Source: Colwellia polaris (GTDB lineage: Bacteria; Pseudomonadota; Gammaproteobacteria; Enterobacterales; Alteromonadaceae). Taken from it: a DNA stretch of 64,000 bases. Shown piece by piece: positions 1,136 to 61,032 of the stretch. The notes beneath the pieces are model-generated. The model was given only the letters and a program-made list of their open reading frames with translations. It made no database searches and was not told the DNA's origin. The stretch lies in assembly GCF_002104515.1 (NCBI RefSeq), contig NZ_NBOE01000005.1:186001-250000 (forward strand), in the 5' to 3' direction. How positions within the stretch are numbered: the first letter of the stretch is position 1; each line of letters starts with the position of its first letter. Made by a program: the position numbers and the translations under genes.

Positions 1136-2452
1136 TTAGCCTGTAATAGTTTGATAGATAACAGGTACTTGATCAGCTTGCTTCTCACCAATATCTAAAG
1201 CGGCTAAATACTGCTGACTTGCTCTAAGCGCTGCATCTTCATCTTTAGCATGAACGCGTGCTAACACATCGCCACGATTTACTAGGGTGCCGGTAGGTAA
1301 TACACGGTCAAAGCCAACCGTATGATCAATTTGCTGACCATTGGCTGTACGGCCACCTTTCAAACCTACAACCGCTAAACCAATATCACGAGTTTGCATG
1401 CCATTAATGTAACCATGATCTGAAGCAATAATATCTTGAACGTAGTTTGCACGTTCCATCGAGCGCCATGGATCTTCCATAAAGTCGCTTGGCCCACCTA
1501 ATGCGTGGATCATTTTGTTGAACTTTTCAGCAGCAGCACCAGAAGATAATGCATGGTTAATTTTTGTTAAAGCTTGCTCTTCGTTGTCAGCAACTTTAGC
1601 ACTTACTAACATGGCTTTAGCTAATGAAACAACAACAGCATGTAAACGAGGCTCACGTAACGAGCCGTTTAAGTATTTAACGGTTTCAGCCATTTCTAAA
1701 GCATTACCTGCAGTAGCACCTAATACTTGGTTCATGTCAGTAATAATTGCTTGTGTTGGCACACCAGCGCCATTAGCAACATTAACAATACTTTGTGCTA
1801 AGGCTTTAGCATCGTCAATATTTGACATCATGGCACCATTACCAACTTTTACATCCATCACTAAGCTATCAAGCCCTGCTGCTAGCTTTTTAGATAAAAT
1901 AGAAGCTGTGATTAATGGAATAGATTCTACCGTCGCAGTAATATCACGAATACCGTATAAACGTTTATCTGCTGGCGCTAAATTATCGGTTTGCGAAATA
2001 ATCGCCATACCTAAATCTTTTACAATCCCTTTAAATTCAGCAATACTTGGCTGAACATTAAAGCCTGCAATACTTTCTAATTTATCGGCTGTTCCGCCAG
2101 TATGGCCTAAGCCACGACCTGCAATCATAGGTACGTAAGCACCACAAGCTGCAACAATAGCCGCTAGCATAAAGCTCACTTTATCGCCCACACCACCTGT
2201 TGAATGCTTATCAACCACTGGACCATCTAATTCAGGCCAAGATAATACATCGCCTGATTGTTTCATCGCCATGGTGAAGTCAATAATTTCACGTGTTTCC
2301 ATACCTTGTTGGAAAATCGCCATGGCCATTGAGCCAGCTTGAGCATCATTAAAATCTTTTGTTACTAGGCCATCTACAAAGCTTTGAATTTGTTCTTTAG
2401 ACAGCGAGCCACCATTACGTTTGGTGCGAATAATTTCTTGAGGTAATAACAT
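1136..2452 (-). CDS. deoA: Thymidine phosphorylase
   Basis: Phosphorolyses thymidine (and deoxyuridine) to the free base and 2-deoxyribose-1-phosphate in the cytoplasm. The 438-residue length matches E. coli DeoA (440). The N-terminal helical domain and KHSTGGVGDKVS precede the family signature AGRGLGHTGGTADKLES (about residues 108-125). It starts 12 bp downstream of the cdd stop with an AAGGA ribosome-binding site, so cdd-deoA is an operon. Its product feeds DeoB and DeoC, encoded near 56-60 kb. The released thymine is an effector of E. coli RutR; a RutR-type box stands at the head of this operon. Pyrimidine-nucleoside phosphorylase Pdp is the only close alternative, and length favours DeoA. 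Confidence 0.96.
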   Translation of the reverse strand: MLLPQEIIRTKRNGGSLSKEQIQSFVDGLVTKDFNDAQAGSMAMAIFQQGMETREIIDFTMAMKQSGDVLSWPELDGPVVDKHSTGGVGDKVSFMLAAIVAACGAYVPMIAGRGLGHTGGTADKLESIAGFNVQPSIAEFKGIVKDLGMAIISQTDNLAPADKRLYGIRDITATVESIPLITASILSKKLAAGLDSLVMDVKVGNGAMMSNIDDAKALAQSIVNVANGAGVPTQAIITDMNQVLGATAGNALEMAETVKYLNGSLREPRLHAVVVSLAKAMLVSAKVADNEEQALTKINHALSSGAAAEKFNKMIHALGGPSDFMEDPWRSMERANYVQDIIASDHGYINGMQTRDIGLAVVGLKGGRTANGQQIDHTVGFDRVLPTGTLVNRGDVLARVHAKDEDAALRASQQYLAALDIGEKQADQVPVIYQTITG

Positions 2453-2464
2453 TAACTAGAGTCC

Positions 2465-2884
2465 TTATATTTCCAGTAAATCTTTAGGTGTAAAAGCATC
2501 TGGTAATAGTTCGTTAACTGTCCATTGCTTTTTATCATTATTATGGTTAACAGCCATCACGAGTGCGTCAGGTGCTAAAAACTCAACAATAACTTGTCGA
2601 CAAGCACCACATGGTGGCGTTAATTTTTCTTGATTGGTATAAATAACTATCGCTGAAAACGACTTCTCACCTGAGATAACGCCTTGTGCTAAACAATTGC
2701 GTTCAGCACAAACCGTTAAGCCGTATGAGGCATTTTCAACATTACAGCCTTTAACTACCTTGCCATTAGCTGTTAACGCAGCAGCACCCACATGAAAGTT
2801 GCTATAGGGCGCATAGGCATTTTCAAAGCCTTCTTTTGCAGCATTAACGAGTGTTAATAATTTATTTTCTTCTATCTTCATCAT
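2465..2884 (-). CDS. cdd: Cytidine deaminase, short tetrameric type
   Basis: Deaminates cytidine and deoxycytidine to uridine and deoxyuridine, supplying DeoA. Zinc and catalytic motifs are clear: VCAERN (Cys plus catalytic Glu) and PCGACRQ (two Cys ligands). At about 139 residues this is the three-cysteine tetrameric class, not the 294-residue E. coli type. I take the ATG-ATG start (2884 or 2881), which has AAAGG about 8 nt upstream. The frame extends to a TTG at 2914, but that TTG is itself the first triplet of a RutR-type operator, so the longer start is unlikely. First gene of the cdd-deoA operon. Confidence 0.95.
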   Translation of the reverse strand: MMKIEENKLLTLVNAAKEGFENAYAPYSNFHVGAAALTANGKVVKGCNVENASYGLTVCAERNCLAQGVISGEKSFSAIVIYTNQEKLTPPCGACRQVIVEFLAPDALVMAVNHNNDKKQWTVNELLPDAFTPKDLLEI

Positions 2885-2898
2885 TAAAAAGCCTTTAT

Positions 2899-2914
2899 CT
2901 GACCATGTGGTCAA
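2899..2914. promoter_or_regulatory. RutR-type operator upstream of cdd-deoA
   Basis: CTGACCATGTGGTCAA matches 13 of the 14 defined positions of the E. coli RutR box TTGACCA-N2-TGGTCAA. It ends 15 bp before the cdd ATG. A possible -10 element (TAGAAT, minus strand, 2925-2920) places the predicted transcription start about at the box, a classic repressor position. A RutR-like TetR protein is encoded 4 kb away. Confidence 0.75.
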
Positions 2915-3017
2915 CTTATATTCTATCCTAGTAAATCACTAGAGGAAAAGCAACCTATATAATCAATAATTACGGGCTATGATGTGCCAATAAACAATTT
3001 CCAATACCGTGAAAATA

Positions 3018-3045
3018 AAAAAGCCAACATAACTGTTGGCTTTTT
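3018..3045 (-). terminator. Rho-independent terminator after the TonB receptor gene
   Basis: A 12-bp stem (3018-3029 with 3034-3045) has a TAAC loop and A/T runs at both ends. It lies 24 bp beyond the receptor stop and separates that gene from the cdd-deoA operon. Confidence 0.85.
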
Positions 3046-3068
3046 AAAAAGGTATTACTTAGTAGATA

Positions 3069-6000
3069 TTAGAAAGTGTATTTAACACCAATCTTCATAC
3101 TCCAAGTAGACTCTCTATCTTGGAATCTAGCTGGTGTCTCACCTTCACTAACATTTGCAGATTCATAAACGTATTGACCCGCATCGTTGATACTATAATC
3201 TAATATCTCTGTTGCTGATTGACCAAATGGTAATTGGTAAACACGTGCAGCACCTTCATCAAAAATAGCTAGCGCATTTTTAATGTCGATATAGAATAAA
3301 CCTTTATGACCTTCTAAGAAACCTGGGATTTCTTGTTCAAAACGTAAGTCCATAGTCGTTGTCCATGGCGCAGTATAGTCGTTCTTACCAAGGTAGCCGC
3401 CATCAGAGCTAATACCAGCCGTTGCTAATTCAGCCATAATTTCGTCGTAGCTTAAACCGTTAGCAAAATCAACCGCACCATCGCTAGCACTTGTTGGAAT
3501 GTAAGGTAAATTAGCTGTAGTAAGATCTAACTCGCCAGATAAACCAGTACGGTTATTGTAGCCTAGCAAGTAGCTAAATGGACGACCTGATTTGCGTTCC
3601 CAGAACATGTGCATGCCAGTGTTGTAACCTTCAAACATTTCAGTGTTATATGAAAGGTTGAACGTTAAACGATGCTTAACTTGGTAAGCTGACGTACCAA
3701 TAGTTGGGTTCTCAGGATCTATAACTGGGTTAAAGTTGTATGCCGTATTTGAAGAAGTACCGGTTGCATCTACACGATTACGAATAGTTGAATGCGTGTA
3801 TGAAAAGTTTGCTTTAAAGCCATTTTTCCAATTTTTAGCTACTGATAATGTCTCAATCATTGTATGACCGCCAGATGTATTAGTTAATAATACATCTCGT
3901 GCATCTCTATCAGCGTCAGCAAAAGTATAAATTGGACGACCTTCAACAGTTAAACCGCCATTTCCTTTTGAAGTATCTAAAGTACGAGAAAGATCAGACC
4001 ATGCCATATCTTTCTGAATATCTTTATAAAGAATTTCACCACTTATGCGCCAGTCATCACCTAGTCCGATATCACTTAAATCAGCAACGTAATCAGCTGC
4101 TAAGCTATACTGCCATGTTGTAGGAACTTCGAAGTTTGGATCAATTGCGTCAATATTTGAATTTGGTCCACCTAACTCAGATTGAGCAATTTGATCTTGT
4201 GCATGTTGTGGAATACCACTTGGATCAGCATTTTGTAAGAAAGTATTAGCGGCTATATCATCACCGAAGCTTCGATATAATGCGATTCTTGAGCCATCAT
4301 TTGTAAATGCATTAGAGATAAATACATTTGGTCGGCCGCCACTAAATAAGCCAGCACCACCACGAATGGTTAAATCATCAGTTGCAGTCCATGTAAAGCC
4401 TAGACGAGGTAATAACACATCTAAACCATCAAGGTTTTCATTGTTTGAAAAACCATAACGATCATAAAAACTTTGGTTAAAGTTAGGAGCATCATCATTT
4501 ACAGTTAATTCATAACGTAAGCCATAAGTTACGTTAAGTGAGTCATTAACATCCCAGCTATCTTCAATGTATAATGCATGGTTACCAAGGGCAAATTCAG
4601 CGGCTGCATCATCACGGTTTAAGCTTGGGTTATTTTGGTATTCAAACCAATCAGCTTGACCTGCTTCAAAGTCATCTATGCTATCGAAATACCATGAACC
4701 TAAGTAATGTTGCATGAAAATGTTATAAACTTCTACTTCTTCGTATTCCCAACCAAAAGAAATAGCATGATCTTCGTATAAGTATTCACCACTTGCACGG
4801 AATTGGAAAGTTTCATTAGTTAGTTCATTTGCATGACGACTGTCATCAGAACCTAACATAATTTCGCCACCGTTTACGGTGTCAATTTTAACTTCACCAA
4901 ACTCATAACCACCAAGTGAAACTTGTCCGTTAACAGATTCTTTTTTTGAAACTTTAATTTCTGTTGAGAAATCTTCAGTCCAGTAAGAGAATAATTGAGC
5001 AACGTAAGTATCAAATTCATTCGAACGGTTATACCAATGAGAAGAAAGGTATAAATCATCTGAATTACCAGAGCCTTGGTTACCCGCACTGTTACTAGAA
5101 CCGTGTGAATAGGTAAAGGTTGCACGATGATCTTCGTTGATGTTCCAGTCTAGTTTCAATGAGTACTTTTCATCTTCTAGTGGAATAGAATCGTCCCAGC
5201 TTCCAGCATCATAGCCATATTTGTCACTAGCAATGTTAATTACACGATCAACTTCAGCTTGAGATACTTGAGTAACTTCATTAGCAACACCAGATCCTAA
5301 AGGACCTTTGTCAACAGAACTTGGTGATTCAAAAGTTTCGTAAGATGCGAAGAAAAATAGTTTATCTTTAATGATCGGACCGCCAAACGTAGCACCCCAA
5401 GTTTCTTCATCAAATTTTAAATCAATTTTGTCGCCATCGTCTGTTTCAGGAGTACCAGCCCAAGCATCTTTTGCTTGTTCTATAAACATAGAACCATGGA
5501 ATTCATTTGTACCTGATTTTGTAACAACGCTTACTTTACCACCAGAAAAACCGCCTTCTTTAGCGGTAAATGGTGCAATGGCAACACTGATTTGATCAAT
5601 TGAATCAAAAGAGATTGGTGAACGTTCTGTAGGGTAACCATTACCGGCTAAACCAAAATCATCATTAAGGTTTACACCATCAACAGCCAAACTGTTATAT
5701 CTTGGGTTACTACCCGCTAGAGATAAAGTATTGCCATCATTACCAACAACAGCCATTGGGTTTTGACGAACAATGTCTTTCAAGTCACGGTTGAAAGCAG
5801 CTGATTTAGTTAAATCGTCGCCACTAAATACACTAGATGAACCTTTTGACGGGTCAAAGAATGTTGAAGAACCTGTAACAGCAATACGTTCAATATTAAC
5901 ATCGTCTAAAACTTCATTAAGACGGAATACATCGCCTAACGAGATATAAATACCTTCTAATTTTTTATCAGCATAAATATCAGAGTCAATCGTTACCGTG

Positions 6001-6245
6001 TATGGACCACCAACACGAAGACCTTGTGCAGAGAAGTTACCCGTATCGTTAACTTTTAAAGTTTTACGAGTACCTGAAGGCTCATGAACTATGGTAATCG
6101 TTGCATCTGTAACTACATTACCGCTTGCAGTTAAGATATTGCCACGAATTGACGATGACGTATCATCAGCCATAGCTGATGTTGACAACCCTAACGCAAG
6201 TACAACTGCGCCAGTAATGCGTGAGAGACGATGAGTTTTCATCAT
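3069..6245 (-). CDS. TonB-dependent receptor, Oar-like with carboxypeptidase-regulatory domain
   Basis: An outer-membrane active transporter of 1058 residues. A Sec signal peptide (MKTHRLSRITGAVVLALGLS, ending at AMA, about residue 26) is followed by a CarboxypepD_reg-like beta-sandwich (about 30-110), a plug domain (about 125-245, with SGGKVSVVTKSGTNEFHG) and a long beta-barrel ending in the aromatic residue F (MKIGVKYTF). This build is the Oar/TonB group common in Alteromonadales. The substrate cannot be read from sequence. Neighbours argue for nucleosides, nucleotides or DNA fragments: cdd-deoA lie downstream, and the divergent RutR-like regulator, a secreted nuclease-family protein and an alkaline phosphatase lie upstream. 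ATG-ATG start with AAGGA upstream. Single-gene transcript bounded by a terminator. Confidence 0.9.
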   Translation of the reverse strand: MMKTHRLSRITGAVVLALGLSTSAMADDTSSSIRGNILTASGNVVTDATITIVHEPSGTRKTLKVNDTGNFSAQGLRVGGPYTVTIDSDIYADKKLEGIYISLGDVFRLNEVLDDVNIERIAVTGSSTFFDPSKGSSSVFSGDDLTKSAAFNRDLKDIVRQNPMAVVGNDGNTLSLAGSNPRYNSLAVDGVNLNDDFGLAGNGYPTERSPISFDSIDQISVAIAPFTAKEGGFSGGKVSVVTKSGTNEFHGSMFIEQAKDAWAGTPETDDGDKIDLKFDEETWGATFGGPIIKDKLFFFASYETFESPSSVDKGPLGSGVANEVTQVSQAEVDRVINIASDKYGYDAGSWDDSIPLEDEKYSLKLDWNINEDHRATFTYSHGSSNSAGNQGSGNSDDLYLSSHWYNRSNEFDTYVAQLFSYWTEDFSTEIKVSKKESVNGQVSLGGYEFGEVKIDTVNGGEIMLGSDDSRHANELTNETFQFRASGEYLYEDHAISFGWEYEEVEVYNIFMQHYLGSWYFDSIDDFEAGQADWFEYQNNPSLNRDDAAAEFALGNHALYIEDSWDVNDSLNVTYGLRYELTVNDDAPNFNQSFYDRYGFSNNENLDGLDVLLPRLGFTWTATDDLTIRGGAGLFSGGRPNVFISNAFTNDGSRIALYRSFGDDIAANTFLQNADPSGIPQHAQDQIAQSELGGPNSNIDAIDPNFEVPTTWQYSLAADYVADLSDIGLGDDWRISGEILYKDIQKDMAWSDLSRTLDTSKGNGGLTVEGRPIYTFADADRDARDVLLTNTSGGHTMIETLSVAKNWKNGFKANFSYTHSTIRNRVDATGTSSNTAYNFNPVIDPENPTIGTSAYQVKHRLTFNLSYNTEMFEGYNTGMHMFWERKSGRPFSYLLGYNNRTGLSGELDLTTANLPYIPTSASDGAVDFANGLSYDEIMAELATAGISSDGGYLGKNDYTAPWTTTMDLRFEQEIPGFLEGHKGLFYIDIKNALAIFDEGAARVYQLPFGQSATEILDYSINDAGQYVYESANVSEGETPARFQDRESTWSMKIGVKYTF

Positions 6246-6918
6246 AATATTCCTTGGTATAAGTTAGTGTTTTGTTTTGTAAATATTTTATTAAAATGTT
6301 TTTTAAAGTTTTACTTAGCTAATTATTCATCTTTTTATTGTTTTATAAGCTTCTGCATGTGAAATTAAAACAGAGTTTTATTACATTTTCATTACAAAAT
6401 TTTACACCTATTTGTTTAAAAATTTACATTTTACAAACAAATAAAATACAAAAACACAGAGGCACCTAATAAACACTTCAATAACAATAACTTAAACAAT
6501 CAATTTAAACATAACAAAAAAACACTTATAACCATAAACTGCTCATTAGACATTGATTATAACAAAAAATGATAAAAACATACCGTTTGGTCAAGATAAA
6601 ATAAAGTATGATTTTAGCTCTATTTTTTAAGGGCTGTATTAGTGTAAAGAATATAACCATGACAAAAAATGAAATTATAAGTAGGTATATTTTCTTGTGA
6701 AATCCTACAAAACGTATTAAAACAGTGCCTTAAATATGTATTTAAATTAAACTGACCAAGAACTGTCGAGCCTGGCTATATTACTTGAGAATAATCAACC
6801 CGATTAATTGGCAACACATATAGCAAGATTACGCTAAGGTTCGTATGGACCGAATAAGTGTAATATTGGCTTAATAGAATTACGTTAACAAAAATATAAT
6901 TATAAAAAGGTTAATCAC
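6246..6918. promoter_or_regulatory. 673-bp divergent regulatory region between TonB receptor and rutR-like gene
   Basis: No gene is visible. The stretch is very AT-rich and must hold promoters for both flanking genes. It contains a degenerate RutR-type box at 6579-6594, a TGACCA half-site at 6753-6758, and a separate GGTTCGTATGGACC pseudo-palindrome at about 6838-6852, close to the regulator start. Its length is unusual for such a compact region. Confidence 0.5.
6579..6594. promoter_or_regulatory. Degenerate RutR-type operator
   Basis: CATACCGTTTGGTCAA has a perfect right half (TGGTCAA) and a poor left half, 10 of 14 defined positions of the RutR box. It lies about midway between the divergent TonB receptor and the rutR-like gene. 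Weak alone; supported by the two near-perfect boxes elsewhere in the window. Confidence 0.4.
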
Positions 6919-7551
6919 GTGAGTAACAATAACAGCAATGAAAAGCAAGGAAGCATTCGCGCTAGAAGTGAGGCTATAATTTTAAAGGCCGCCCAAAAAG
7001 AGTTCATATTACAGGGCTTTAAAGGTGCTACCGTTCAGTCTATAGCCGATAACGCAGGGCTACCTAAAGCTAATGTTTTGTATTACTTCAAAAATAAAGA
7101 AAATATATACCATGCTGTATTACAGTTAACACTTGATACTTGGGACCAAGGTATCGGTGAACTTGATGTTGAGGACGGCCCTGTTGTTGCTATTGAAAAG
7201 TTTATTGCCTCTAAAGTTAAAATGTCTTTCGAACATCCAGAAGCCTCTAAAATTTATGCAATGGAGATTATTCAAGGCGCCTTGCACTTAAAAGAGTTTG
7301 CACGTACGTACCTTCGTCAATGGGTTCGTGAAAAAGCGAAAGTATTTCAAGTATGGATTGATAGTGGCGAAATGAAAGATATTGATCCCGTAAAGCTTAT
7401 TTTTTTAATTTGGTCTTCAACTCAACATTATGCCGATTTTGAACAACAGATATTAACGATAATGAATCGCGCTGATTATGAAGAAGATGATATGACTCAA
7501 GTAACACAATTTTTAACTGACTTTATATTGCGTGGTTGCGGGTTAAAGTAG
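6919..7551 (+). CDS. TetR-family regulator, RutR-like (pyrimidine-responsive)
   Basis: A 210-residue TetR protein. The N-terminal helix-turn-helix is ILKAAQKEFILQGFKGATV...IADNAGLPKANVLYYFKNKENIY (about 20-66). The C-terminal ligand domain carries IYAMEIIQGA and LIFLIWSSTQHYADFEQQ, nearly identical in pattern to E. coli RutR, which binds uracil or thymine and represses or activates pyrimidine genes. The sequence match is by recall, not alignment. GTG start. The next gene begins 8 bp after its stop, so it probably heads an operon with the nuclease-family gene and perhaps the phosphatase. RutR-type boxes at 2899 and 57329 suggest its targets. No rut operon is visible here, so it would control nucleoside use instead. 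Confidence 0.85.
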   Translation: MSNNNSNEKQGSIRARSEAIILKAAQKEFILQGFKGATVQSIADNAGLPKANVLYYFKNKENIYHAVLQLTLDTWDQGIGELDVEDGPVVAIEKFIASKVKMSFEHPEASKIYAMEIIQGALHLKEFARTYLRQWVREKAKVFQVWIDSGEMKDIDPVKLIFLIWSSTQHYADFEQQILTIMNRADYEEDDMTQVTQFLTDFILRGCGLK

Positions 7552-7559
7552 GAACTTTG

Positions 7560-8762
7560 ATGAAATTATTTACATTTTTATTAACAACGTCCTTATTAAT
7601 AAGCCCAGGGATAGTAATGGCAGAAAGAATCAGCAAAACAACATCTTCCATACGTATTGCCACTTTCAATGTGAGTATGGAAGCTTTAAATTATCTCCCC
7701 TCTGAATTAGGTAGAGAAGCTAAACCTACGGGTAAAGAATTAGCGCAAGCATTGAAACAAAACCATCAACAAATTAGAAATATTGCTGAAATAATCCAAC
7801 GCGTAAATCCTGATATAATTTTGTTAAATGAATTTGACTCAAATGATAAAACTCATCAATCATTGAAGCTTTTTTTAAGTGAATATTTAGCAAAGAGCCA
7901 GCAAGGTGAGAACGCTATAAACTTCCCTTACTTTTATCAAGGGCCTGTCAACACCGGTGTTGCATCAGGTTTTGATTTAAATAATGACAACAAAATAGGA
8001 GAATTACCCAGCGATGCCTTCGGTTATGGACTTTTTCCCGGACACTTTGGTATGGCATTATTATCTAAGTATCCAATAGTAGAAGATAAAATAAGAACAT
8101 TTCAGCTATTTAAATGGCGAGATATGCCTAATGCCATGATGCCTATCGATCCAGAAACAAAAGCACCATGGTTTAATGAAAAAGCCTGGAACAACTATCG
8201 CCTATCTTCTAAATCTCACTGGGATATTCCTTTAAATGTTAACGGAGAAGAGTTGCATATTTTAGCAAGCCACCCCACTCCACCCGTGTTTGACGGACCT
8301 GAAGATCGCAACGGAAAAAGAAACTTTGATGAAATACGTTTTTGGATTGATTACTTAACCCCAAGTGCCGCCAGCTATATTTACGACGACAAAACCCAAT
8401 ATGGTGGCCTTAGCGAAAATAAAGCCTTTGTTATCTTAGGCGATTTAAATGCTGATGCTGTCGATGGAGATGCGATTAAATCTGGTATTCAAAGCTTAAT
8501 TTCCCATGCACGTGTCAATGATCCTACACCTTTTAGTGAAGGCGGAAAACTTCACAAAAAGGACAACCCTAACGCAAAATATCACACAGCCTATTGGGGC
8601 ATGCGTGCCGATTACGTATTACCTGCTAAACAGCAACTACAGGTCATTAACTCGGGTATTTTTTGGCCCACAGTCAAAGAAGCTGAGTTTAGATTAATTA
8701 AAGACCGTGCTGCTTCATCAGATCACCGACTAGTTTGGGTCGATGTAGCATTTAAAGAATAA
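7560..8762 (+). CDS. Secreted endonuclease/exonuclease/phosphatase (EEP) family protein
   Basis: A 400-residue protein of the metal-dependent EEP (DNase I-like) fold. The start at 7560 has AGGA upstream and gives a signal peptide, MKLFTFLLTTSLLISPGI, ending near VMA. EEP motifs in order: IATFNVS near the mature N-terminus, NEFD (metal-binding Glu, about residue 88), LGDLNAD (about 296-302) and SDHRLVWVD at the C-terminus (catalytic Asp-His pair). Family members include extracellular nucleases, phosphodiesterases and sphingomyelinases. The DeoA/Cdd/RutR setting and adjacent alkaline phosphatase favour DNA, RNA or nucleotide hydrolysis outside the cytoplasm. Exact substrate unknown. Confidence 0.82.
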   Translation: MKLFTFLLTTSLLISPGIVMAERISKTTSSIRIATFNVSMEALNYLPSELGREAKPTGKELAQALKQNHQQIRNIAEIIQRVNPDIILLNEFDSNDKTHQSLKLFLSEYLAKSQQGENAINFPYFYQGPVNTGVASGFDLNNDNKIGELPSDAFGYGLFPGHFGMALLSKYPIVEDKIRTFQLFKWRDMPNAMMPIDPETKAPWFNEKAWNNYRLSSKSHWDIPLNVNGEELHILASHPTPPVFDGPEDRNGKRNFDEIRFWIDYLTPSAASYIYDDKTQYGGLSENKAFVILGDLNADAVDGDAIKSGIQSLISHARVNDPTPFSEGGKLHKKDNPNAKYHTAYWGMRADYVLPAKQQLQVINSGIFWPTVKEAEFRLIKDRAASSDHRLVWVDVAFKE

Positions 8763-8775
8763 ATTTATGAACAAA

Positions 8776-8798
8776 CAACAGCTTAACTTAAGCTGTTG
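8776..8798 (+). repeat. Short perfect hairpin between nuclease-family and phosphatase genes
   Basis: A 9-bp stem, CAACAGCTT (8776-8784) with AAGCTGTTG (8790-8798), has a 5-nt loop. No T-run follows, so a strong terminator is unlikely; an RNA-processing or attenuating hairpin is possible. It covers an upstream TTG that could be mistaken for the start of the phosphatase. Confidence 0.6.
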
Positions 8799-8837
8799 CA
8801 CTTACCTTTTACCCTTATAAAGTTAGCGGATATCAAT

Positions 8838-10268
8838 ATGAAAAAATTCATTCCAAGCTTATTAACCAGTTTGTTAATCATGTCTTGTAGTCAACTTCAA
8901 GCGGCACCAACCAAATTAAACACCAGCGCGGCAGATAATATGCCCAAGAATATTATCATGGTTGTCGGTGATGGCATGGGACCAGCTTTTACCACAGCTT
9001 ATCGTTATTATAACGACAACCCAAATACTCCTGAAATTGAAAAAACTGTGTTTGATCGCAATTTCACAGGTACCAGTAGCACCCACCCTGATCCTGAATC
9101 TGGCTATATTACCGACTCAGCAGCAAGCGCTACAGCGTTATCTACCGGCATAAAAACTTACAATAATTCGATAGGCTTAGATATAAACAGATTGCCGGTT
9201 GAAACCGTTTTAGAATATGCAAAAAAACAAGGCAAGAAAACCGGCGTTGTTGTTACCGTACAAATAAATCACGCAACTCCTGCTTCGTACTTAGCTCATA
9301 ACGAACATCGTTATAACTATAACGCTATCGCTGACAGCTATATTGATGACGGTATAAAAGCAGATCTATATTTAGGTGGCGGCTGGAAATATTTTATCCG
9401 TAAAGATAGAAACTTAGTTGACGAGTTTATTGGTTCTGGTTTTCATTACATCGATAAATATAGCGAAATAGACTCTATTCCTAACGATAAGCCGGTATTA
9501 GGGTTATTTGATAAAACCAATTTACCTTGGGCATTAGACGATACCAACAAACACCGTTTATCAATGATGACCAAAGCAGCTACCAAGCAATTAGAAAACA
9601 AGCATGGTTATTTCATGCTAGTTGAAGGAAGCCAAGTAGATTACGCCGGACACGCGCGAGATATTGCTGCGGCAATGGCAGAAATGGACGACTTAGCAAA
9701 AACCATTGAATACCTTGAAACTTATGTAGCAGATAACCCAGATACATTAGTAGTGATCACGGCAGACCATAGTACTGGTGGTTTAACTATTGGTAAAAAA
9801 ACAGCACGCACAGACCCAAACATTAATAGTAAATACTTGTGGCGACCTGAATTTATTAGAGCCATGACTATGTCACCACAAACAATGGCGAGTAAGTTTG
9901 TTGAAAATGATTTAAGCATAGAAAAAATTAATGAATTCATGACTTTTGATATTACCGAAGCTGACTTAGCTAACTTAAAAGCAGCAAAGGTTATCGACCT
10001 AGATATTATGACGCAATTCAACCAATTATCTGCTGCCGAGAAAAAGGGCAAAAGAGCGCCAAGAGCTTATCAATCTGTACTTAACGTAATGACCAAAATC
10101 ATTGATATAAAAACGAATACTGGCTGGGGATCAATTAGCCCATCAGGAACGCATACTGGCGTTGATGTCCCCGTATTCGCTTTTGGTAAAGGTAGTGAAA
10201 ACTTCAATGGCTTTCAAGATAACACCGATATTGCTAAGAAAATATTTACCTTGCTAGGTAAGAAATAA
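8838..10268 (+). CDS. Alkaline phosphatase, secreted
   Basis: A PhoA-superfamily phosphomonoesterase of 476 residues. The ATG at 8838 gives a signal sequence MKKFIPSLLTSLLIMSCSQ; the Cys suggests a lipoprotein, although the lipobox (IMSC) is imperfect. Catalytic features: VGDGMG (metal Asp), ITDSAASATALSTG with the nucleophile Ser (about residue 95), VEGSQVDYAGHA, ITADHSTGGLT and GTHTGVDVP (metal His). It would strip phosphate from nucleotides released by the upstream nuclease-family protein so that nucleosides can be imported. It sits 75 bp behind that gene on the same strand. No convincing Pho box was seen upstream, which points away from simple phosphate-starvation control. Confidence 0.9.
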   Translation: MKKFIPSLLTSLLIMSCSQLQAAPTKLNTSAADNMPKNIIMVVGDGMGPAFTTAYRYYNDNPNTPEIEKTVFDRNFTGTSSTHPDPESGYITDSAASATALSTGIKTYNNSIGLDINRLPVETVLEYAKKQGKKTGVVVTVQINHATPASYLAHNEHRYNYNAIADSYIDDGIKADLYLGGGWKYFIRKDRNLVDEFIGSGFHYIDKYSEIDSIPNDKPVLGLFDKTNLPWALDDTNKHRLSMMTKAATKQLENKHGYFMLVEGSQVDYAGHARDIAAAMAEMDDLAKTIEYLETYVADNPDTLVVITADHSTGGLTIGKKTARTDPNINSKYLWRPEFIRAMTMSPQTMASKFVENDLSIEKINEFMTFDITEADLANLKAAKVIDLDIMTQFNQLSAAEKKGKRAPRAYQSVLNVMTKIIDIKTNTGWGSISPSGTHTGVDVPVFAFGKGSENFNGFQDNTDIAKKIFTLLGKK

Positions 10269-53684: not shown

Positions 53685-55949
53685 TTAAAAGAAGTTCGCT
53701 TTAAATTCAACACCCCAGAAACGAGGTTCGTTAACATAACCTGTTAAGTTATTGAAATCGATCGCACCAGTAAGTTGCTCTTCATCAGTAATATTACGAC
53801 CAAATACAGCCACTTCATATTCAGCGCCGTCGGTGTACCATTCGTACCCAACACGTATACCGCCTTCTAGTAAGCCATCGCCAGTAAACTCTGTTGACTC
53901 ATATAAGAAGAAGTTAACTTCACTACGGTAAGACCAATCTGTGTAAATATAAAGTTCACCATCAGCAATTTCTTTAGTCCAACGAGCAGCAAAGTTTGAA
54001 ATCCACTCTGGAGATTGCGGTAGTGAGTTACCATCGATTAACGCTAAACCGTCACCATTTAGTGGTGAAGTTACTGTACAACCACCGCCACAACCTGGCA
54101 CAGCTACATTTTTATCTTGTAATTCTGTATGGTTATAACTAACGCTTGCTGTTAATACTAAATCGTCTGTAACAAAGTATTCTGAGTCAAGTTCAAAACC
54201 GTAACCAACTGACTTATCAGCATTAAGTAAACTTGCTACGTTACCAGTACCACCAACAGCTGTTAATTGTTGGTCATTCACAACATAGTAGTAAACCGAG
54301 CCATCAACACGTGCGGTATTTTCTAAAAATACTGATTTAAAACCAGTTTCTACAGAGTCAACAGTTTCAGAATCAGCTGTTGTTGAGTTAGCTGAGAATA
54401 ATAAACTACGTCCCTGGATACTTGGCGCACGGTAACCACGAGCTAAACGTGCATAAACGTTAGTTTCATCATTTAATTTGTAGCTAGCACTTAAGTCACC
54501 ACTGACTTGTGAATCTTGTACATTGTTACTTTCAGTAAAGCTTGGTGCGCCAAATGGAGATTGAACTAATTCGCCATCCCAATCACGTTTGTCGTCTGAA
54601 TAACGTAAACCACCGTTAATCGTTAACTTATCTGAAACTTCATAATCAAGTGATGCAAAAACTGCCCACGCCGAAGTTTCCATTTTTTGGATAGCAATAC
54701 CGTTTTGTGCACCACCACCTAAAGTATCAAAACTTAAGTTGTTAATCGTTAAGTCTTCATCAAAAAGGAAATAACCAAATTGATAATCAAACTTACCTAA
54801 GTCATTACTCGCGATACGTATTTCTTGAGTAATTTGTTTGTGATCTGGCATTCTTGCGCCAGTTTCTGATGGGAATGGAATAAAACCAGGTCCCATTTCA
54901 GGTAAGAAAGAAGCACCGTAGCCACCATCAATATCACCAACTGAAAACATTTCAGCAGACTCATAACCAGTAACAGAGGTTAGTGTGTGATCGCCCATGT
55001 CATATTCAAGCCTTAAACTAGCACCTTTCATATCAACCGTTTGGTTGTTACGAGAAGCAGCATCATGAAATACAGTTTCACGATCAAAGTCATCAACTAA
55101 TTCATTAGTGCCCGGCTTGATGATATTTGCTCTAAAAACACGAGCATCAGCTTCTGCATCACGAAAATGATAGTTAAACAATGCAGAGAATTCATCACTT
55201 GGTTCCCATAACAATTGTAAGCGACCAGCAGTTTCACTGTAGCCACCTAGTTGGTCTTCAGCTTCAAAACCAGGTGCTTTGTTATCTATCCAATCATCAC
55301 GATCTTGTTGTAATAATGCAACTCGAGCTGATAATGTATCGGTTAAACTACCACCTACTGCTACACGTAAATCAGTGGTATCAAAACTACCGTATGAAGC
55401 AGAAACACTTGCGTCAAAATCTTGTGTTGGCTTTTTCGATTGAACTTTAACAATACCAGCGGGAGTATTACGTCCAAACAATGTTCCTTGAGGACCACGT
55501 AAAACTTCAACGCGCTCAATGTCAAACATTGGCATACCTTTAGTTAAGGCATTTTCTAAAACAACATCATCGTATATTAACGATACTGGTTGTGAGGCTA
55601 GTAGATCAAAATCTGTGTTGCCTAAACCACGAATATAAAATCTAGGGAATGTACGACCAAAAGAAGATTCAATGAGTAAGCTTGGTACTTTAGCTGAAAG
55701 TGCTCTAACATCCATACCAGATGAACCTAAAACCTCTAATTTTTTAGGGGTAAGTGCTGATACAGAAATTGGAACTTCTTTGATATTTTCTGTACGCTTA
55801 CGAGCGGTAACTTCTATAACTTCAACGCCAACAACATCAGCGTTTTTAGCACTTTCTTCTGCTAATGCTGATGTTGAAACACCTGCAGCAGATGCTAAAA
55901 TAGCCGCATTTACGCATAGTGCGAGCGACGTCTTCTTAAAAACATTCAT
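53685..55949 (-). CDS. TonB-dependent receptor
   Basis: An outer-membrane receptor of 754 residues from the ATG at 55949, which has GGGAGA 8 nt upstream; the TTG at 55964 is part of that ribosome-binding region. A signal peptide ends at SALA (about residue 30). A TonB-box-like VEVIEVTARKR is followed by the plug (VPISVSAL, FPRFYIRGLGN, RVEVLRGPQGTLFGRNTPAG) and a barrel ending GVEFKANFF. The fold is the classical siderophore/vitamin type, but it lies 93 bp behind deoB on the same strand and beside udk and nupC. A nucleoside or related substrate is plausible, not shown. Confidence 0.88.
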   Translation of the reverse strand: MNVFKKTSLALCVNAAILASAAGVSTSALAEESAKNADVVGVEVIEVTARKRTENIKEVPISVSALTPKKLEVLGSSGMDVRALSAKVPSLLIESSFGRTFPRFYIRGLGNTDFDLLASQPVSLIYDDVVLENALTKGMPMFDIERVEVLRGPQGTLFGRNTPAGIVKVQSKKPTQDFDASVSASYGSFDTTDLRVAVGGSLTDTLSARVALLQQDRDDWIDNKAPGFEAEDQLGGYSETAGRLQLLWEPSDEFSALFNYHFRDAEADARVFRANIIKPGTNELVDDFDRETVFHDAASRNNQTVDMKGASLRLEYDMGDHTLTSVTGYESAEMFSVGDIDGGYGASFLPEMGPGFIPFPSETGARMPDHKQITQEIRIASNDLGKFDYQFGYFLFDEDLTINNLSFDTLGGGAQNGIAIQKMETSAWAVFASLDYEVSDKLTINGGLRYSDDKRDWDGELVQSPFGAPSFTESNNVQDSQVSGDLSASYKLNDETNVYARLARGYRAPSIQGRSLLFSANSTTADSETVDSVETGFKSVFLENTARVDGSVYYYVVNDQQLTAVGGTGNVASLLNADKSVGYGFELDSEYFVTDDLVLTASVSYNHTELQDKNVAVPGCGGGCTVTSPLNGDGLALIDGNSLPQSPEWISNFAARWTKEIADGELYIYTDWSYRSEVNFFLYESTEFTGDGLLEGGIRVGYEWYTDGAEYEVAVFGRNITDEEQLTGAIDFNNLTGYVNEPRFWGVEFKANFF

Positions 55950-56042
55950 GTAGTACTCTCCCAAGAACTGTTTATGTTTTGTGTAAAATTTATTTTTCTC
56001 ATTTTACTGTATGTTATCAGTAAAGTGGTTAACTTTTAATTG

Positions 56043-57254
56043 TTATAAATCAAGATCAGATAAAAAACTAGTACCATAAGGCATTTTATCTAATGAAAAT
56101 AAATCTGCGATAGTTTGACCGATATCAGCAAAAGTACCGCGCTCGCCGATATTAACAGATCGTACCTGTTTGTGAAATGCTATTACAGGGACATATTCAC
56201 GCGTATGATCGTTACCCGGCCACGTTGGGTCACAGCCATGATCCGCGGTTAAAAACAATACATCGTCATCGTTCATGGCTGAGATAATTTCAGGCATACG
56301 TTTGTCAAAGTTTTCAAGTGCTAATGCATAACCAACGGGATCACGACGGTGACCGTAGTCTTGGTCAAAGTTAACCAGGTTAGTAAAGATTAAACTCTTG
56401 TCTTGTGCGCTATTTATATGAGTAATTGTGGCATCTACAAGTGCGTCTATACCCGTTGCTTTGGTTTTTTCACTGATACCTTGATGGGCATAAATATCGG
56501 CAATTTTACCAACGCTAATCACATGGCCACCCGCTTGTGTAAATGCATCTAGCACTGTAGGTGATGGCGGTAGAATAGAATAGTCACGTCTGTTACCTGT
56601 ACGGGTAAAATCTGCAGGACTGCTGCCTACAAAAGGACGAGCGATTACACGACCAACATTCATATCGGCAAGTAATTCACGAACTGTTTCACAGTATTTA
56701 TAAAGGTTATCTAAGCCAAAATGCTCTTCGTGTGCAGCAACTTGAAACACACTATCTGCTGATGTGTAACAAATAGGCAAGCCTGATTTAATATGCTCTT
56801 CACCGAGTTTATTAATAATGTCAGTACCTGAAGCATGACAATCACCTAAAATACCTTTATAACCTGTAGCTAGGTTAATTTTATCAATAAGGTCAACAGG
56901 AAAAGCATTACCTTCCTTAGGGAAGTAATCCCAATCAAAAAGTACAGGAACACACATCATTTCCCAATGACCACTAGGTGTATCTTTACCGGTACTTAAT
57001 TCTGCAGCATAACCATAGGCGCCCTGCTCAGGTTTTTGCTCTTCTACAGGAAACTCGCTCTTACCAGCTTCAAATGCCGCTTGAACTAAACCCATTTTAG
57101 CTAAATTAGGCACGCTGATTTTACGTTTTTCGTGTTGATAGAAGTATCGCGATAAATTAGCAAAAGTATTGGCATTAATACCGCCAAAATTTGCTGCATC
57201 AGGTGCATGACCCACGCCAAAGCTATCGATTACTAAAACTATTGCTCTTGCCAT
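56043..57254 (-). CDS. deoB: Phosphopentomutase
   Basis: Interconverts (deoxy)ribose-1-phosphate and 5-phosphate, linking DeoA to DeoC. The 403 residues (E. coli 407) have alkaline-phosphatase-superfamily metal sites: VIDSFGVGHAPDA at the N-terminus, GKDTPSGHWEMM with the phosphorylated Thr (about 92), DYGHRRDPVGYA and LTADHGCDPTWPGNDHTREYVP. A RutR-type box and possible promoter lie 75-90 bp upstream. Expression may continue into the TonB receptor gene downstream. Confidence 0.97.
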   Translation of the reverse strand: MARAIVLVIDSFGVGHAPDAANFGGINANTFANLSRYFYQHEKRKISVPNLAKMGLVQAAFEAGKSEFPVEEQKPEQGAYGYAAELSTGKDTPSGHWEMMCVPVLFDWDYFPKEGNAFPVDLIDKINLATGYKGILGDCHASGTDIINKLGEEHIKSGLPICYTSADSVFQVAAHEEHFGLDNLYKYCETVRELLADMNVGRVIARPFVGSSPADFTRTGNRRDYSILPPSPTVLDAFTQAGGHVISVGKIADIYAHQGISEKTKATGIDALVDATITHINSAQDKSLIFTNLVNFDQDYGHRRDPVGYALALENFDKRMPEIISAMNDDDVLFLTADHGCDPTWPGNDHTREYVPVIAFHKQVRSVNIGERGTFADIGQTIADLFSLDKMPYGTSFLSDLDL

Positions 57255-57344: not shown

Positions 57345-57544
57345 CATGTGATACTTTACCAAGCTATAAATTATAGACAACAGATATTTTGTAAATATTT
57401 AACGCAGAGTTATTGCTTTTGCTTAAATTTTAATGAATTTCAGATAAATTAGTCCATAATATGAGTGCGGTGAGTTGTTCTCAGTCACATCGCAAATAAT
57501 AATTACTTAACATTTTGTTAATCATATTTTTAAGGCTCTCTGTT

Positions 57545-58189
57545 TTGCAAATCAATAAACCGACAATTATCGCGGTAACCGGCGCTTCTGCATCTGGAAA
57601 ATCACTTTATGCGCAAACAATTTACGATGAATTGTTACCTGAATTAGGATCGAGTGGCATTGCCATTATCAAAGAAGATTCTTACTACAATAGTCAATCA
57701 CATTTATCGATGGAAGAACGTGTAAAAACTAACTATGACCACCCTAGTGCATTTGAACATAGTCTACTTTCAAAACACTTAACACAGTTAAGCAATGGCG
57801 AAAGTGTAGATATACCCACTTATTGCTATAAAACCCATACCCGTTTACCTGAAACAATTCATTTAGATCCCACACCTATAATTTTAATCGAAGGTATTCT
57901 TTTATTTTCGGATAAAGAGCTAAGAGATAAATTCGATATTAAAATTTATATAGATACTCCGCTTGATATTTGTCTTGTGCGAAGAATTAACAGAGATACT
58001 GTCGAGCGTTCACGAAGCGTAGCGTCAATTACAGAACAATATTTAACGACTGTTCGACCTATGTATCGCCAACATATTGAGCCCAATAAGCCTTTCGCTG
58101 ATATCGTCGTTACACGTGGCGGGAAAAATAGAATGGCCATTGAAATGCTAAAAGCAAAAATACGTCAGTTAATGAATAAACGCGTATAA
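57545..58189 (+). CDS. udk: Uridine kinase
   Basis: Phosphorylates uridine and cytidine to UMP and CMP. A TTG start at 57545 gives 214 residues (E. coli 213): TIIAVTGASASGKSLYAQTIYDEL carries the P-loop (about 6-29), followed by KEDSYYNSQSHLSMEERVKTNYDHPSAF (substrate pocket) and RRINRDTVERSRS (lid). The frame extends to 57515, but those residues are hydrophobic and atypical; AAGG lies 10 nt before the TTG. First gene of the rightward nucleoside block udk-nupC-deoC-tdk. Confidence 0.92.
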   Translation: MQINKPTIIAVTGASASGKSLYAQTIYDELLPELGSSGIAIIKEDSYYNSQSHLSMEERVKTNYDHPSAFEHSLLSKHLTQLSNGESVDIPTYCYKTHTRLPETIHLDPTPIILIEGILLFSDKELRDKFDIKIYIDTPLDICLVRRINRDTVERSRSVASITEQYLTTVRPMYRQHIEPNKPFADIVVTRGGKNRMAIEMLKAKIRQLMNKRV

Positions 58190-58268: not shown

Positions 58269-59513
58269 ATGGAATTAGGTGCTCTTCGAGGAGTCTTTGG
58301 TATTTTCGCTTTATTAGCATTAGCATTTTTCTTATCAAAAGATCGCAGTGCAATAAATTGGCGAACCGTGGGTTTTGCTTTTTCATTACAGATTATATTA
58401 GGTGCTTTTGTACTTTACGTGCCTTTTGGTAAAGACATGTTGGGCTCGGTTACTAATGGTGTACAACAAGTTATTAATAGTGCTGAGGCTGGTATAAGCT
58501 TTTTATTCGGTGGTTTAGGCACCGATGCCATGTTTGAAAATGGTGTTGGCTTTGTTTTCGCGATTCGAGTATTACCGGTAATTATTTTTTTCTCATCCTT
58601 GATTGCTGTACTTTATTATCTAAATATAATGCAATGGGTAGTAAAAATTATTGGTGGCGGATTACAAAAACTATTAAAAACATCTAAGCCTGAATCACTT
58701 TCTGCGACCGCTAATATTTTTGTAGGTCAAACAGAAGCCCCGCTAGTTATTCGCCCATACATTTCAAAAATGAGTCAATCTGAACTTTTTGCTATTATGG
58801 TGGGTGGTTTAGCATCCGTTGCAGGTTCGATTTTAGCCGGTTATGCAGGCCTAGGGGTTAAACTTGAATATCTTATAGCCGCTTCTTTTATGGCAGCTCC
58901 GGGTGGTTTACTTATGGCTAAAATACTCTTACCTGAAACAGAAGAAATCAATAATGATTATAGTGATGTTGAGTTAGCTGAAGCAGGCGATAAACCCGCC
59001 AATGTAATCGATGCAGCTGCAACGGGCGCCGCTTCAGGTTTAAAGCTTGCAGTGAACGTTGGTGCCATGCTACTTGCCTTTATTGCTATTATTGCGTTAC
59101 TTAACTCTATGGTTTCTGGCTTTGGTAATTTACTAGGGTTTGAAGGCATCACCATTGAATGGTTGCTTGGCTATATTTTTGCGCCGTTTGCTTTCCTTAT
59201 TGGTGTTCCTTTTGAAGAAATGCTTCAAGCAGGTAGTTTTATTGGGCAAAAAATTGTTGTTAATGAATTCTTCGCTTATGTTAACTTTGTTGAAATAAAA
59301 GAAACACTTTCTCCAACAACTCAAGCTATCGTAACCTTCGCTTTATGTGGTTTTGCTAACTTATCATCTATTGCTATTTTACTTGGTGGTATAGGTTCAA
59401 TGGCGCCGAATCGCCGTCCTGATATTGCACGTTTAGGCATGAAAGCAATGCTTGCGGCTACTATGGCTAACTTAATGAGTGCTGCTATTGCTGGCGTATT
59501 CGTCAGTTTATAA
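58269..59513 (+). CDS. nupC: Concentrative nucleoside transporter NupC
   Basis: Inner-membrane cation-coupled nucleoside importer of the CNT family, 414 residues with about eight to ten membrane helices. Signature segments: FVGQTEAPLVIRPYISKMSQSELFAIMVGGLASVAGSILAGY (about 155-196, helix-hairpin and substrate site), GVPFEEMLQAGSFIGQKIVVNEFFAY (about 315-340) and ALCGFANLSSIAILLGGIG. It is 79 bp behind udk. It supplies the cytoplasmic Cdd, DeoA, Udk and Tdk enzymes. Confidence 0.96.
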   Translation: MELGALRGVFGIFALLALAFFLSKDRSAINWRTVGFAFSLQIILGAFVLYVPFGKDMLGSVTNGVQQVINSAEAGISFLFGGLGTDAMFENGVGFVFAIRVLPVIIFFSSLIAVLYYLNIMQWVVKIIGGGLQKLLKTSKPESLSATANIFVGQTEAPLVIRPYISKMSQSELFAIMVGGLASVAGSILAGYAGLGVKLEYLIAASFMAAPGGLLMAKILLPETEEINNDYSDVELAEAGDKPANVIDAAATGAASGLKLAVNVGAMLLAFIAIIALLNSMVSGFGNLLGFEGITIEWLLGYIFAPFAFLIGVPFEEMLQAGSFIGQKIVVNEFFAYVNFVEIKETLSPTTQAIVTFALCGFANLSSIAILLGGIGSMAPNRRPDIARLGMKAMLAATMANLMSAAIAGVFVSL

Positions 59514-59598: not shown

Positions 59599-60372
59599 AT
59601 GAGTACATTAGAAAGTTACGCACAACGTGCATTGCATATGATGGATTTAACCAGTTTAACCGACATTGAAACTGCTGAAGATATTATAAAACTTTGTAAA
59701 ACAGCTAAAACTACCTGTGGCAATACCGCCGCTATTTGCATTTACCCTCGCTTTGTTCCATTAGCAAAAAAAATATTAGCGTTGCAAGGTACGCCTGAGA
59801 TTAAAATAGCGACAGTGACAAACTTTCCTCACGGAAACGATGACGTAACTATAGCCGTTGCTGAAACAAAAGCCGCGATAGCCTACGGTGCTGATGAAGT
59901 TGACGTGGTATTCCCGTATAAAGCCTTAATGAATGGCGATGAAAAAATCGGTTTTGACCTTGTTAAAGCCTGTAAACAAGTTTGTGGTAAAAACACGCTA
60001 TTAAAGGTTATTATTGAAACTGGTGAGCTTAAAACTGACGAACTTATTACCCAAGCCAGCGAGATTTGTATTGCTGCAGGTGCTGATTTCATCAAAACAT
60101 CAACCGGCAAAGTGGCAACAAATGCGACACCAAAAGCTGCTGAGTTAATGTTAAAGGCCATTAAAAATAAAAATACACAGGTTGGATTCAAACCCGCCGG
60201 TGGTGTAAAGAATGCCGAAGATGCTAAGATTTACCTTGACTTGGCGAGTGATATTTTAGGCACAGATTGGGCTACTAAGAGCCACTTTCGCTTTGGTGCC
60301 AGTAGTTTACTGACTAACTTACTAAATACTTTAGGCGCGAGTGCTGAAGTAGCAAATCCTTTGAGTTATTAA
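59599..60372 (+). CDS. deoC: Deoxyribose-phosphate aldolase
   Basis: Class I aldolase splitting 2-deoxyribose-5-phosphate into acetaldehyde and glyceraldehyde-3-phosphate, the last step of deoxynucleoside catabolism. The 257 residues contain [28 protein letters not shown] (Schiff-base-assisting region, about 135-146) and [17 protein letters not shown] with the catalytic Lys (about 167), then [11 protein letters not shown]. coli DeoC is 259 residues. Placed between nupC and tdk. Confidence 0.97.
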
Positions 60373-60444: not shown

Positions 60445-61032
60445 ATGGCACAATTATACTTTTATTATTCAACTATGAACGCCGGCAAGTCGACTCATTT
60501 ATTACAATCTTCTTATAACTACCAAGAACGAGGCTTAGATACTTTGTTATTTACGGCACAAATTGACGATAGGTTTGCTAAGGGTAAAGTGTCATCAAGA
60601 CTAGGTATTCATGCCGACGCGCTACTTTTCGATGATAATACCGATATATTCAGCCAGGTAAAGCAGCAAGTTGGTCAACGTAAAATTGCTTGTATCTTAA
60701 TCGATGAAGCGCAATTTTTAACTAAACTACAAGTAAAAGAATTAACCGACATTGTTGATGAATTGAAAGTGCCGGTATTAGCATACGGTATTCGCACTGA
60801 TTTTCTCGGTGAGACTTTTAAAGGCAGTGCGGCATTATTAGCTTGGGCTGATAAGTTAGTCGAATTAAAAACAATTTGTCATTGTGGTAAAAAAGCCAAC
60901 TTTGTTATGCGTTGCGATGAAAATGGTCAAGCGGTACAAGGCGGAGAACAAATTGAGGTGGGTGGTAATGAACGTTACGAATCTTTATGTCGTAAACATT
61001 TCAAAGCACAAGTTTGGAATATGTCTGTTTAA
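60445..61032 (+). CDS. tdk: Thymidine kinase
   Basis: Phosphorylates thymidine to dTMP (salvage). The 195-residue type II enzyme begins [24 protein letters not shown] (P-loop MNAGKS, about 11-17), then [16 protein letters not shown] (Walker B and catalytic Glu, about 88) and the zinc lasso [12 protein letters not shown] with a later Cys. It competes with DeoA for thymidine, so salvage and catabolism are encoded together. Last gene of the block. Confidence 0.97.

Follow-up and report, generated by a model that had tools for sequence, protein, structure and literature searches.

A RutR-family regulator predicted to control nucleoside and nucleic-acid feeding genes in Colwellia polaris

The locus and its predicted operators

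The window, i.e., the whole stretch of 64,000 nucleotides from Colwellia polaris (NCBI RefSeq assembly GCF_002104515.1, contig NZ_NBOE01000005.1, positions 186,001 to 250,000 of the forward strand) that was analysed, harbours a gene for a TetR-type regulator of the RutR family, surrounded by the nucleoside catabolism genes cdd and deoA, a TonB-dependent receptor, a secreted-looking EEP-family protein and an alkaline phosphatase and, farther along, by the deoB and udk-nupC-deoC-tdk genes (Table 1). A probability of roughly 0.75 is assigned to the reading in which this protein acts as a repressor that governs a nucleic-acid feeding regulon and responds to a product of that feeding, a base or a close analogue, as inducer. 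The sequence evidence covers the family of the protein, the operators and their conservation, the content of the regulon and the apparent lack of base catabolism. A preliminary description of the window had proposed RutR-like control of nucleoside and nucleic-acid scavenging, a proposal that appears supported by the operators, by their conservation and by the regulon content.

The box that the preliminary description had recognised at the head of cdd-deoA (CTGACCATGTGGTCAA) was found again as a 13/14 match to the sequence TTGACCANNTGGTCAA, which we take to be the RutR-type operator consensus. The second box (ATGACCAATTGGTCAA) matches this consensus equally well and is now placed between the divergent deoB and udk-nupC-deoC-tdk genes. 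At its own targets the RutR-type operator is accordingly present and conserved in sequence, the binding of the local TetR protein being predicted. Within the 4.43 Mb genome, these two sites are the only ones with at most one mismatch, and the exact 12-base core TGACCANNTGGTCA occurs twice, as compared with 0 occurrences of its reversed control. In the window, 8 sites with up to three mismatches were counted vs 3.1 in shuffled sequences, a number reached by 5 of 100 shuffles. This palindrome also occurs, with 3 mismatches, in the spacer between rutA and rutR of E. coli.

Only the strong sites are informative. Loose matches carry no meaning in this genome, since the 24 sites found with up to two mismatches are balanced by 23 for the reversed pattern and represent no excess. 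This balance would agree with palindromes arising by chance in AT-rich intergenic DNA; however, such an explanation is at odds with the exact-core counts and with the position of the sites, their conservation and their dependence on the orthologue, is contradicted by the comparison of cdd-upstream regions described below, and appears extremely improbable. A by-eye listing of the genes adjoining the loose 2-mismatch boxes of the genome revealed no common theme apart from exeM, and these boxes were set aside. A loose match at 3219, located inside the TonB-receptor reading frame, was also dropped as a probable coding coincidence.

The operator upstream of cdd ends 14 bp before the ATG at 2884, which argues for a repressor that blocks expression of this gene. 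The other strong operator is located 74 bp upstream of the deoB start codon, and some 170 bp separate it from the start annotated for udk; these distances would also suit an activator or a dual regulator acting at some targets instead of a simple repressor. E. coli RutR itself is described as acting positively, although indirectly, at carAB (PMC10891134). This possibility is nevertheless considered unlikely in view of the cdd operator, where a bound protein is expected to block.

The EEP gene starts 8 bp after the stop codon of the regulator. The neighbours named in the preliminary description, i.e., a TonB receptor, an EEP protein whose N-terminus resembles a signal sequence and an alkaline phosphatase, have all been confirmed by domain matches. 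Another TonB-receptor-like protein, recognised by eye, is encoded at 53685-55964 directly beside deoB and near the nucleoside box, and in some other genera the udk box has a different TonB receptor as its neighbour (loci L259, L261, L271, L274 and L288). At 61135-63486, the translation suggests a large aspartate-repeat-rich protein ending in an OmpA-like domain.

Table 1. Genes and predicted operators of the window (positions count from its first nucleotide).
Feature	Position	Strand	Evidence
deoA, thymidine phosphorylase	1136..2452	-	TIGR02643 592 bits, cut-off 570.7
cdd, cytidine deaminase	2465..2884	-	NF004064 153.7 bits, cut-off 74
RutR-type operator (predicted), CTGACCATGTGGTCAA	2899..2914	none	1 mismatch of 14
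TonB-dependent receptor	3069..6245	-	PF07715, PF25183, PF13620 (together plug, carboxypeptidase-like and barrel domains)
Degenerate operator (predicted)	6579..6594	none	4 mismatches; conserved footprint, TonB receptor/regulator spacer
RutR-family TetR repressor (predicted)	6919..7551	+	210 amino acids, GTG start; PF00440 and PF08362
EEP-fold phosphodiesterase/nuclease, secreted-looking (predicted)	7560..8762	+	PF03372
Alkaline phosphatase family protein	8838..10268	+	PF00245 291.6 bits
deoB, phosphopentomutase	56043..57254	-	NF003766 549 bits
RutR-type operator (predicted), ATGACCAATTGGTCAA	57329..57344	none	13/14; between divergent deoB and udk-nupC-deoC-tdk
udk, uridine kinase	57515..58189	+	NF004018 293 bits
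nupC, nucleoside transporter	58269..59513	+	TIGR00804 468 bits
deoC, deoxyribose-phosphate aldolase	59599..60372	+	TIGR00126 248 bits
tdk, thymidine kinase	60445..61032	+	NF003300 305 bits

The regulator and its place in the RutR family

Profile scans of the regulator gave 155.8 bits for PF08362 (cut-off 25) and 43.7 bits for PF00440 (TetR_N, cut-off 24), so that the protein belongs to the RutR family taken in the wide sense, i.e., TetR_N plus a YcdC-like C-terminal domain at gathering scores. The equivalog model TIGR03613, which is a narrow one since none of the 229 sampled genomes of the class pass its cut-off of 368, was not reached, with 168.7 bits. The top three sequence matches in the PDB are all named RutR, the best being 3loc (E 5e-36), and the nearest named regulator proteins are 93% identical, in keeping with a Colwellia/Cognaticolwellia-like genome. 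The preliminary description had announced the STQHYADF-type ligand domain of RutR: the domain is confirmed by PF08362 and by the PDB matches, in which STQHYADF is aligned, but the motif also occurs in a paralogue encoded in a purine cluster of the same genome and is not specific to RutR.

When 55 chosen rows were placed in a tree, the nucleoside regulators formed a single clade (support 100/99) nested in a larger set that also contains the Hahella, Alteromonas and other paralogues. Purine-catabolism genes adjoin several of the surrounding paralogues, a label which for L087 and L103 rests on weak guaD-like matches of 24-27%. E. coli RutR pairs on a long branch with L172 (97/95), the window protein belongs to a different clade (100/98), and no grouping of the two was observed in this tree. 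The alignment and the tree called for earlier thus place the protein inside the RutR family and not with unrelated TetR families, although among paralogues rather than beside E. coli RutR; by score and by tree, it is to be regarded as a family member and not as a RutR orthologue.

For E. coli RutR, five residues surrounding uracil and the DNA-contact residues K52 and K62 are described in PMC10891134. Both lysines are retained in the window protein (K50 and K60), and four of the five uracil-pocket residues, W77, W167, Q171 and Q179, are identical (W75, W165, Q169 and Q177), F95 occupying the position of Y97. Throughout the 70 distinct proteins of the clade, K52/K62 are conserved in 70/70, W77 in 70/70, W167 in 67/70, and Q171 and Q179 in 69/70, one row being short. 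Compared with E. coli RutR (TIGR03613, PDB 3loc/4jyk/6z1b), the protein looks alike in its PF08362 TetR architecture, its 16-bp palindrome, its DNA-contact Lys pair and the Trp/Trp/Gln/Gln set that surrounds uracil in the E. coli protein. It differs by an identity of 33-34%, by a score under the cut-off of the RutR model, by its clade, by the replacement of Tyr97, by the lack of rut genes in the searches made here and by a predicted regulon devoted to nucleosides and DNA breakdown.

Conservation and content of the predicted regulon

A total of 80 related loci were retrieved, 67 of which (L016-L082) belong to the Colwelliaceae or near kin by title or similarity, together with L086. The usual arrangement comprises deoB, a box and udk-nupC-deoC-tdk; deoA-cdd followed by a box; the TonB receptor; and the regulator, EEP and phosphatase genes, tdk adjoining deoA in the loci of 36 relatives. 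The block from deoB to tdk is about 45 kb distant from the regulator in the window and about 500 kb distant in genome G163, and in both cases the box stays with the genes. Upstream of cdd (-250 to +60), a box with up to three mismatches was detected in 49/52 loci from genomes possessing an orthologue of the regulator vs 1/22 from genomes devoid of it, the reversed pattern giving 2/52 and 1/22, respectively. In the deoB-udk spacer, a box with up to two mismatches occurs in 17/17 sequences, while control spacers of the same loci rarely contain one at up to three mismatches (EEP-phosphatase 0/29, deoC-tdk 0/32, tdk/deoA 2/36). In the spacer that separates the TonB receptor from the regulator, the conserved footprint is aligned in 11/11 sequences, namely the window itself and those of 10 close relatives. 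Exact-core sites in 196 genomes of the family average 2.09 where the orthologue is present (58 genomes), 1.33 where there is only a paralogue (46) and 0.45 where both are lacking (92), as against 0.28, 0.20 and 0.32 for the reversed controls in the same order.

The second family member of this genome (G000:C27:5696-6301) is located in a purine-catabolism cluster. These boxes might be read by that paralogue, the local TetR protein having other targets. The two proteins share genome and family, and purine-cluster paralogues of other genera have nearly the same box close by (L099 at 9084, L100 at 8809, L107 at 9455 and L113 at 11926), beside xdhA in several loci. These purine-gene paralogues, found in Alteromonadaceae and Hahella next to xdhAB, puuD and guaD, are in the tree the closest relatives outside the clade (up to 50% identity) and differ from the window protein in retaining Tyr97 and in having purine degradation genes as neighbours. 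Among the fetched loci of the Lys type, 7/9 have a box with at most one mismatch, 4 of the 9 (L099-L102) having been fetched because a box lay near. The Colwellia paralogue differs further by an Arg at the position of K52, a base-contacting Lys, and by the lack of a box: none with up to two mismatches was found in its 16 kb cluster (L098), and the exact-core box was encountered in 0/6 distinct Arg-type loci fetched. As the box before cdd also tracks the presence of the local orthologue, reading by the paralogue seems quite improbable.

The preliminary description would have lost its ground if the palindrome were equally common away from nucleoside genes; this is not what was found. Throughout the 8 genus genomes, 23/23 exact-core sites precede cdd (8), deoB/udk (8), pgi (5), add (1) or exeM (1), with a single occurrence of the reversed control. 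For other genera, 20 genomes with the orthologue, representing 10 genera and chosen for at least two sites, yielded 66 exact-core sites (reversed control 5) that were classified by hand, and 55 of them adjoin related genes. Counting second copies, 40 of the 66 are located at cdd, deoA, deoB or udk. A further 15 are distributed among the regulator itself, its TonB-receptor spacer, deoD, add, EEP proteins, a weak exeM-like gene and dihydropyrimidinase/PreT genes, two of them inside the add reading frame and one 446 bp from deoD. In two Colwellia loci (L065 and L071), a second copy of the regulator is grouped with a TonB receptor, transketolase (tkt), endonuclease I and deoD; both have 2-mismatch boxes before tkt and endonuclease I, and a box about 100 bp before deoD shows 3 mismatches in L065 and 2 in L071.

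Some candidate targets proved to be restricted. A pgi box with up to two mismatches occurs in 6/8 genus genomes (L154-L158 and L160); being absent from the own genome and from G163, pgi was dropped as a target in the former, which contains an extra pgi-like copy in pieces with internal stops (G000:C12:316716-318335) and intact copies elsewhere. Similarly, add was rejected as a general target, its box being found in G091 only among the 8 genomes. In two genomes of one further genus (G061 and G013), a methyl-accepting chemotaxis receptor is preceded at about 200 bp by an exact-core box (L270 at 2553 and L273 at 2486; L270 was domain-scanned and L273 identified by likeness), which possibly reflects chemotaxis to nucleobases, or chance. 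In G120 and G149, a RutR-like gene sits beside a gene cluster (L116 8348-19682 and L117 1286-17001). The L116 cluster encodes a luciferase-like monooxygenase, a cytosine/purine/uracil-type permease, an amidohydrolase and an M20 peptidase-family protein, and is adjoined by cdd-deoA with a 1-mismatch box; genes resembling F420 biosynthesis, recognised by eye, are also present in this cluster, which perhaps encodes an F420-dependent route of pyrimidine breakdown.

The predicted regulon apparently extends to exeM, a gene of the extracellular-nuclease family, which is joined in relatives by endonuclease I, deoD, tkt and an EEP-phosphatase fusion. ExeM-type genes whose open frames span about 1350 codons were found in 7/8 genus genomes, and in 7/7 a box with up to three mismatches is located about 85 to 160 bp upstream, even where, as in two of the seven, the gene is just 49-57% identical to the query. 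The ExeM/NucH model NF033681 matches the first 1075 residues of the G007 copy with 360 bits (cut-off 300), and the own-genome ExeM, encoded by a gene unlinked to the regulator locus and preceded at -114 by the site CTTACCAAGTGGTCAG, was assigned by its 87% identity to that copy. ExeM from Shewanella is reported to degrade both DNA and RNA (PMC6085458). A further site, located some 200 bp into exeM in 5/5 close orthologues, encodes V-T-K-W-S in the own copy and was discarded as a coding constraint.

Across 66 rows, the N, E, DxN and SDH residues of the EEP protein are conserved, a pattern which we take to be that of the catalytic residues. The ExeM/NucH model gave only 18.6 bits with this protein, far under the cut-off, and a PDB sequence search returned no match. 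Its AlphaFold model (predicted local distance difference test, pLDDT, 78) resembles, among the 50 matches listed in a fold search, EEP enzymes of mixed substrates, e.g., 4ruw, nocturnin, TDP2 and sphingomyelinases, with template-modelling (TM) scores to the query of 0.35-0.49. DNA, RNA, nucleotides and lipids are all candidate substrates of this enzyme. In genome G135, a secreted-looking protein (L244 2675-5001) fuses an EEP domain with an alkaline phosphatase beside a nupC-like gene, and is preceded at 117 bp by an exact-core box, which argues for a joint function of the neighbouring genes at 7560-10268 of the window.

The degradation of free bases seems to lie outside this predicted regulon. 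With E. coli RutA as a query, a search made without a positive control gave no match in 10/10 genomes, and the own genome (G000) yielded no full dihydropyrimidinase but only a 52-residue match, full-length matches being found in G101 and G040. Uracil and thymine released by Cdd and DeoA thus seem not to be degraded here by the Rut or the reductive pathway, and the lack of both RutA and a full dihydropyrimidinase in the searches made points to nucleoside and DNA feeding, not base catabolism, as the target of control. The division is not absolute, since three genomes from other genera also have this box before dihydropyrimidinase/PreT genes, identified by a domain scan in L255 and by matching N-termini in the other two, with an additional 91% identity in G040. 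The earlier statement that the rut pathway is not the target consequently holds for the own genome, as far as searched, and requires qualification for these genera.

Proposed mechanism and significance

According to the reading preferred here, a ligand-free dimer of the repressor would sit on TTGACCANNTGGTCAA-type operators before cdd-deoA and between deoB and udk-nupC-deoC-tdk, and would also occupy the spacer between the TonB receptor and the regulator, thus covering the rutR-EEP-phosphatase unit, as well as the region upstream of the unlinked exeM. During the breakdown of pyrimidine nucleosides, Cdd and DeoA would release uracil and thymine, and the binding of a base or a close analogue to the pocket would cause the repressor to leave its operators, so that secretion, uptake and catabolism would be switched on together. 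Besides uracil, thymine is a ligand of E. coli RutR. Uracil is described as impairing the DNA binding of the E. coli protein (PMC10891134). We infer the repression, the ligand and the co-transcription, together with the substrates of the TonB receptor, the EEP protein and the phosphatase.

Several observations, besides the balance of loose sites noted above, weigh against this reading. The own-genome operators are weak at the TonB receptor/rutR spacer (4 mismatches) and at exeM (3 mismatches), and promoter scans found no sigma-70-like promoter at the cdd site. In the TonB-receptor/regulator spacer of relatives, a best box with up to three mismatches was recorded in 46/59 loci vs a high 13/59 for the reversed control, which makes this spacer the weaker part of the case. 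Three of the 52 cdd regions accompanied by the orthologue have no box (L069, L072 and L073), and the single boxed control, L216, reveals that cdd may have a box even where this orthologue is missing, its source genome G043 having a paralogue-level match. Zero exact-core sites were found in 13/58 genomes with the orthologue, and 11/66 sites of other genera have no clear link, e.g., those at chemotaxis receptors (two genomes) and at an alginate lyase. Moreover, close relatives are not independent of each other, and the named loci overlap in part with the other genomes. Finally, Tyr97, which in E. coli RutR holds a water molecule bridging to uracil, is replaced by Phe (64) or Ile (6) in 70/70 distinct members of the clade, which suggests that uracil sensing may be altered and the ligand possibly retuned; among the other family members, 28/29 retain this residue and the remaining one has Met.

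This replacement leaves room for a ligand other than a free pyrimidine base, such as a nucleoside, a purine base or deoxyribose phosphate, the protein being then a general nucleoside or purine sensor. The branching of the clade among paralogues, several of them beside purine-catabolism genes, and the presence of the purine genes add and deoD near boxes in some relatives point in the same direction. However, at least 67/70 members retain the two Trp and two Gln residues by which the E. coli protein holds uracil, most boxes are located at pyrimidine genes, and the boxes at dihydropyrimidinase/PreT genes in three genomes also speak for a pyrimidine, so that a ligand other than a free pyrimidine base is a less probable alternative. 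A more speculative and rather doubtful idea starts from the fact that thymine is the base marking DNA: the clade might be a sensor of DNA as food, a repressor whose pocket has lost Tyr97 and been retuned, perhaps to thymine, and which would drive one programme comprising secreted DNases, uptake, nucleoside cleavage and the entry of pentose into central metabolism (pgi, tkt and tal in relatives).

Extracellular DNA represents a sizeable marine pool of carbon, nitrogen and phosphorus. The pathway by which Vibrio cholerae exploits it resembles the system proposed here in its secreted nucleases (Dns and Xds, the latter having Shewanella ExeM as a so-called homologue), passage of the outer membrane through OmpK, periplasmic phosphatases and NupC. 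In Vibrio cholerae, xds is described as induced by PhoB and dns as repressed by HapR (PMC6746945), whereas here a single predicted operator of a local TetR-type protein marks both nuclease and catabolic genes. In Shewanella, DeoR* and PnuR, predicted nucleoside regulators described as largely hypothetical (PMC3223726), would likewise exert local control over nucleoside phosphorylases and transporters within a related order, but belong to the Crp family and not to the TetR/RutR type. A comparative prediction of RutR regulons by Leyn et al. (2016) covered 68 genomes from 13 taxa and yielded large regulons and a motif that changes between taxa (PMC5343134); the regulog is described there as one of pyrimidine catabolism, unlike the nucleoside and DNA regulon proposed here. 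No paper describing this regulon was found in the searches of the open literature made here, and part of the regulon may already be predicted in RegPrecise.

The Vibrio cholerae pathway is reported under at least two unrelated regulators. In the Colwelliaceae, a single local operator marking secreted nuclease, transport and catabolic genes would help to find the whole set of DNA-feeding genes, TonB receptors and EEP-phosphatase enzymes among them. It also suggests a way in which members of the RutR family may have shifted from one class of compound to another, i.e., bases, purines or nucleosides, with their DNA site retained.

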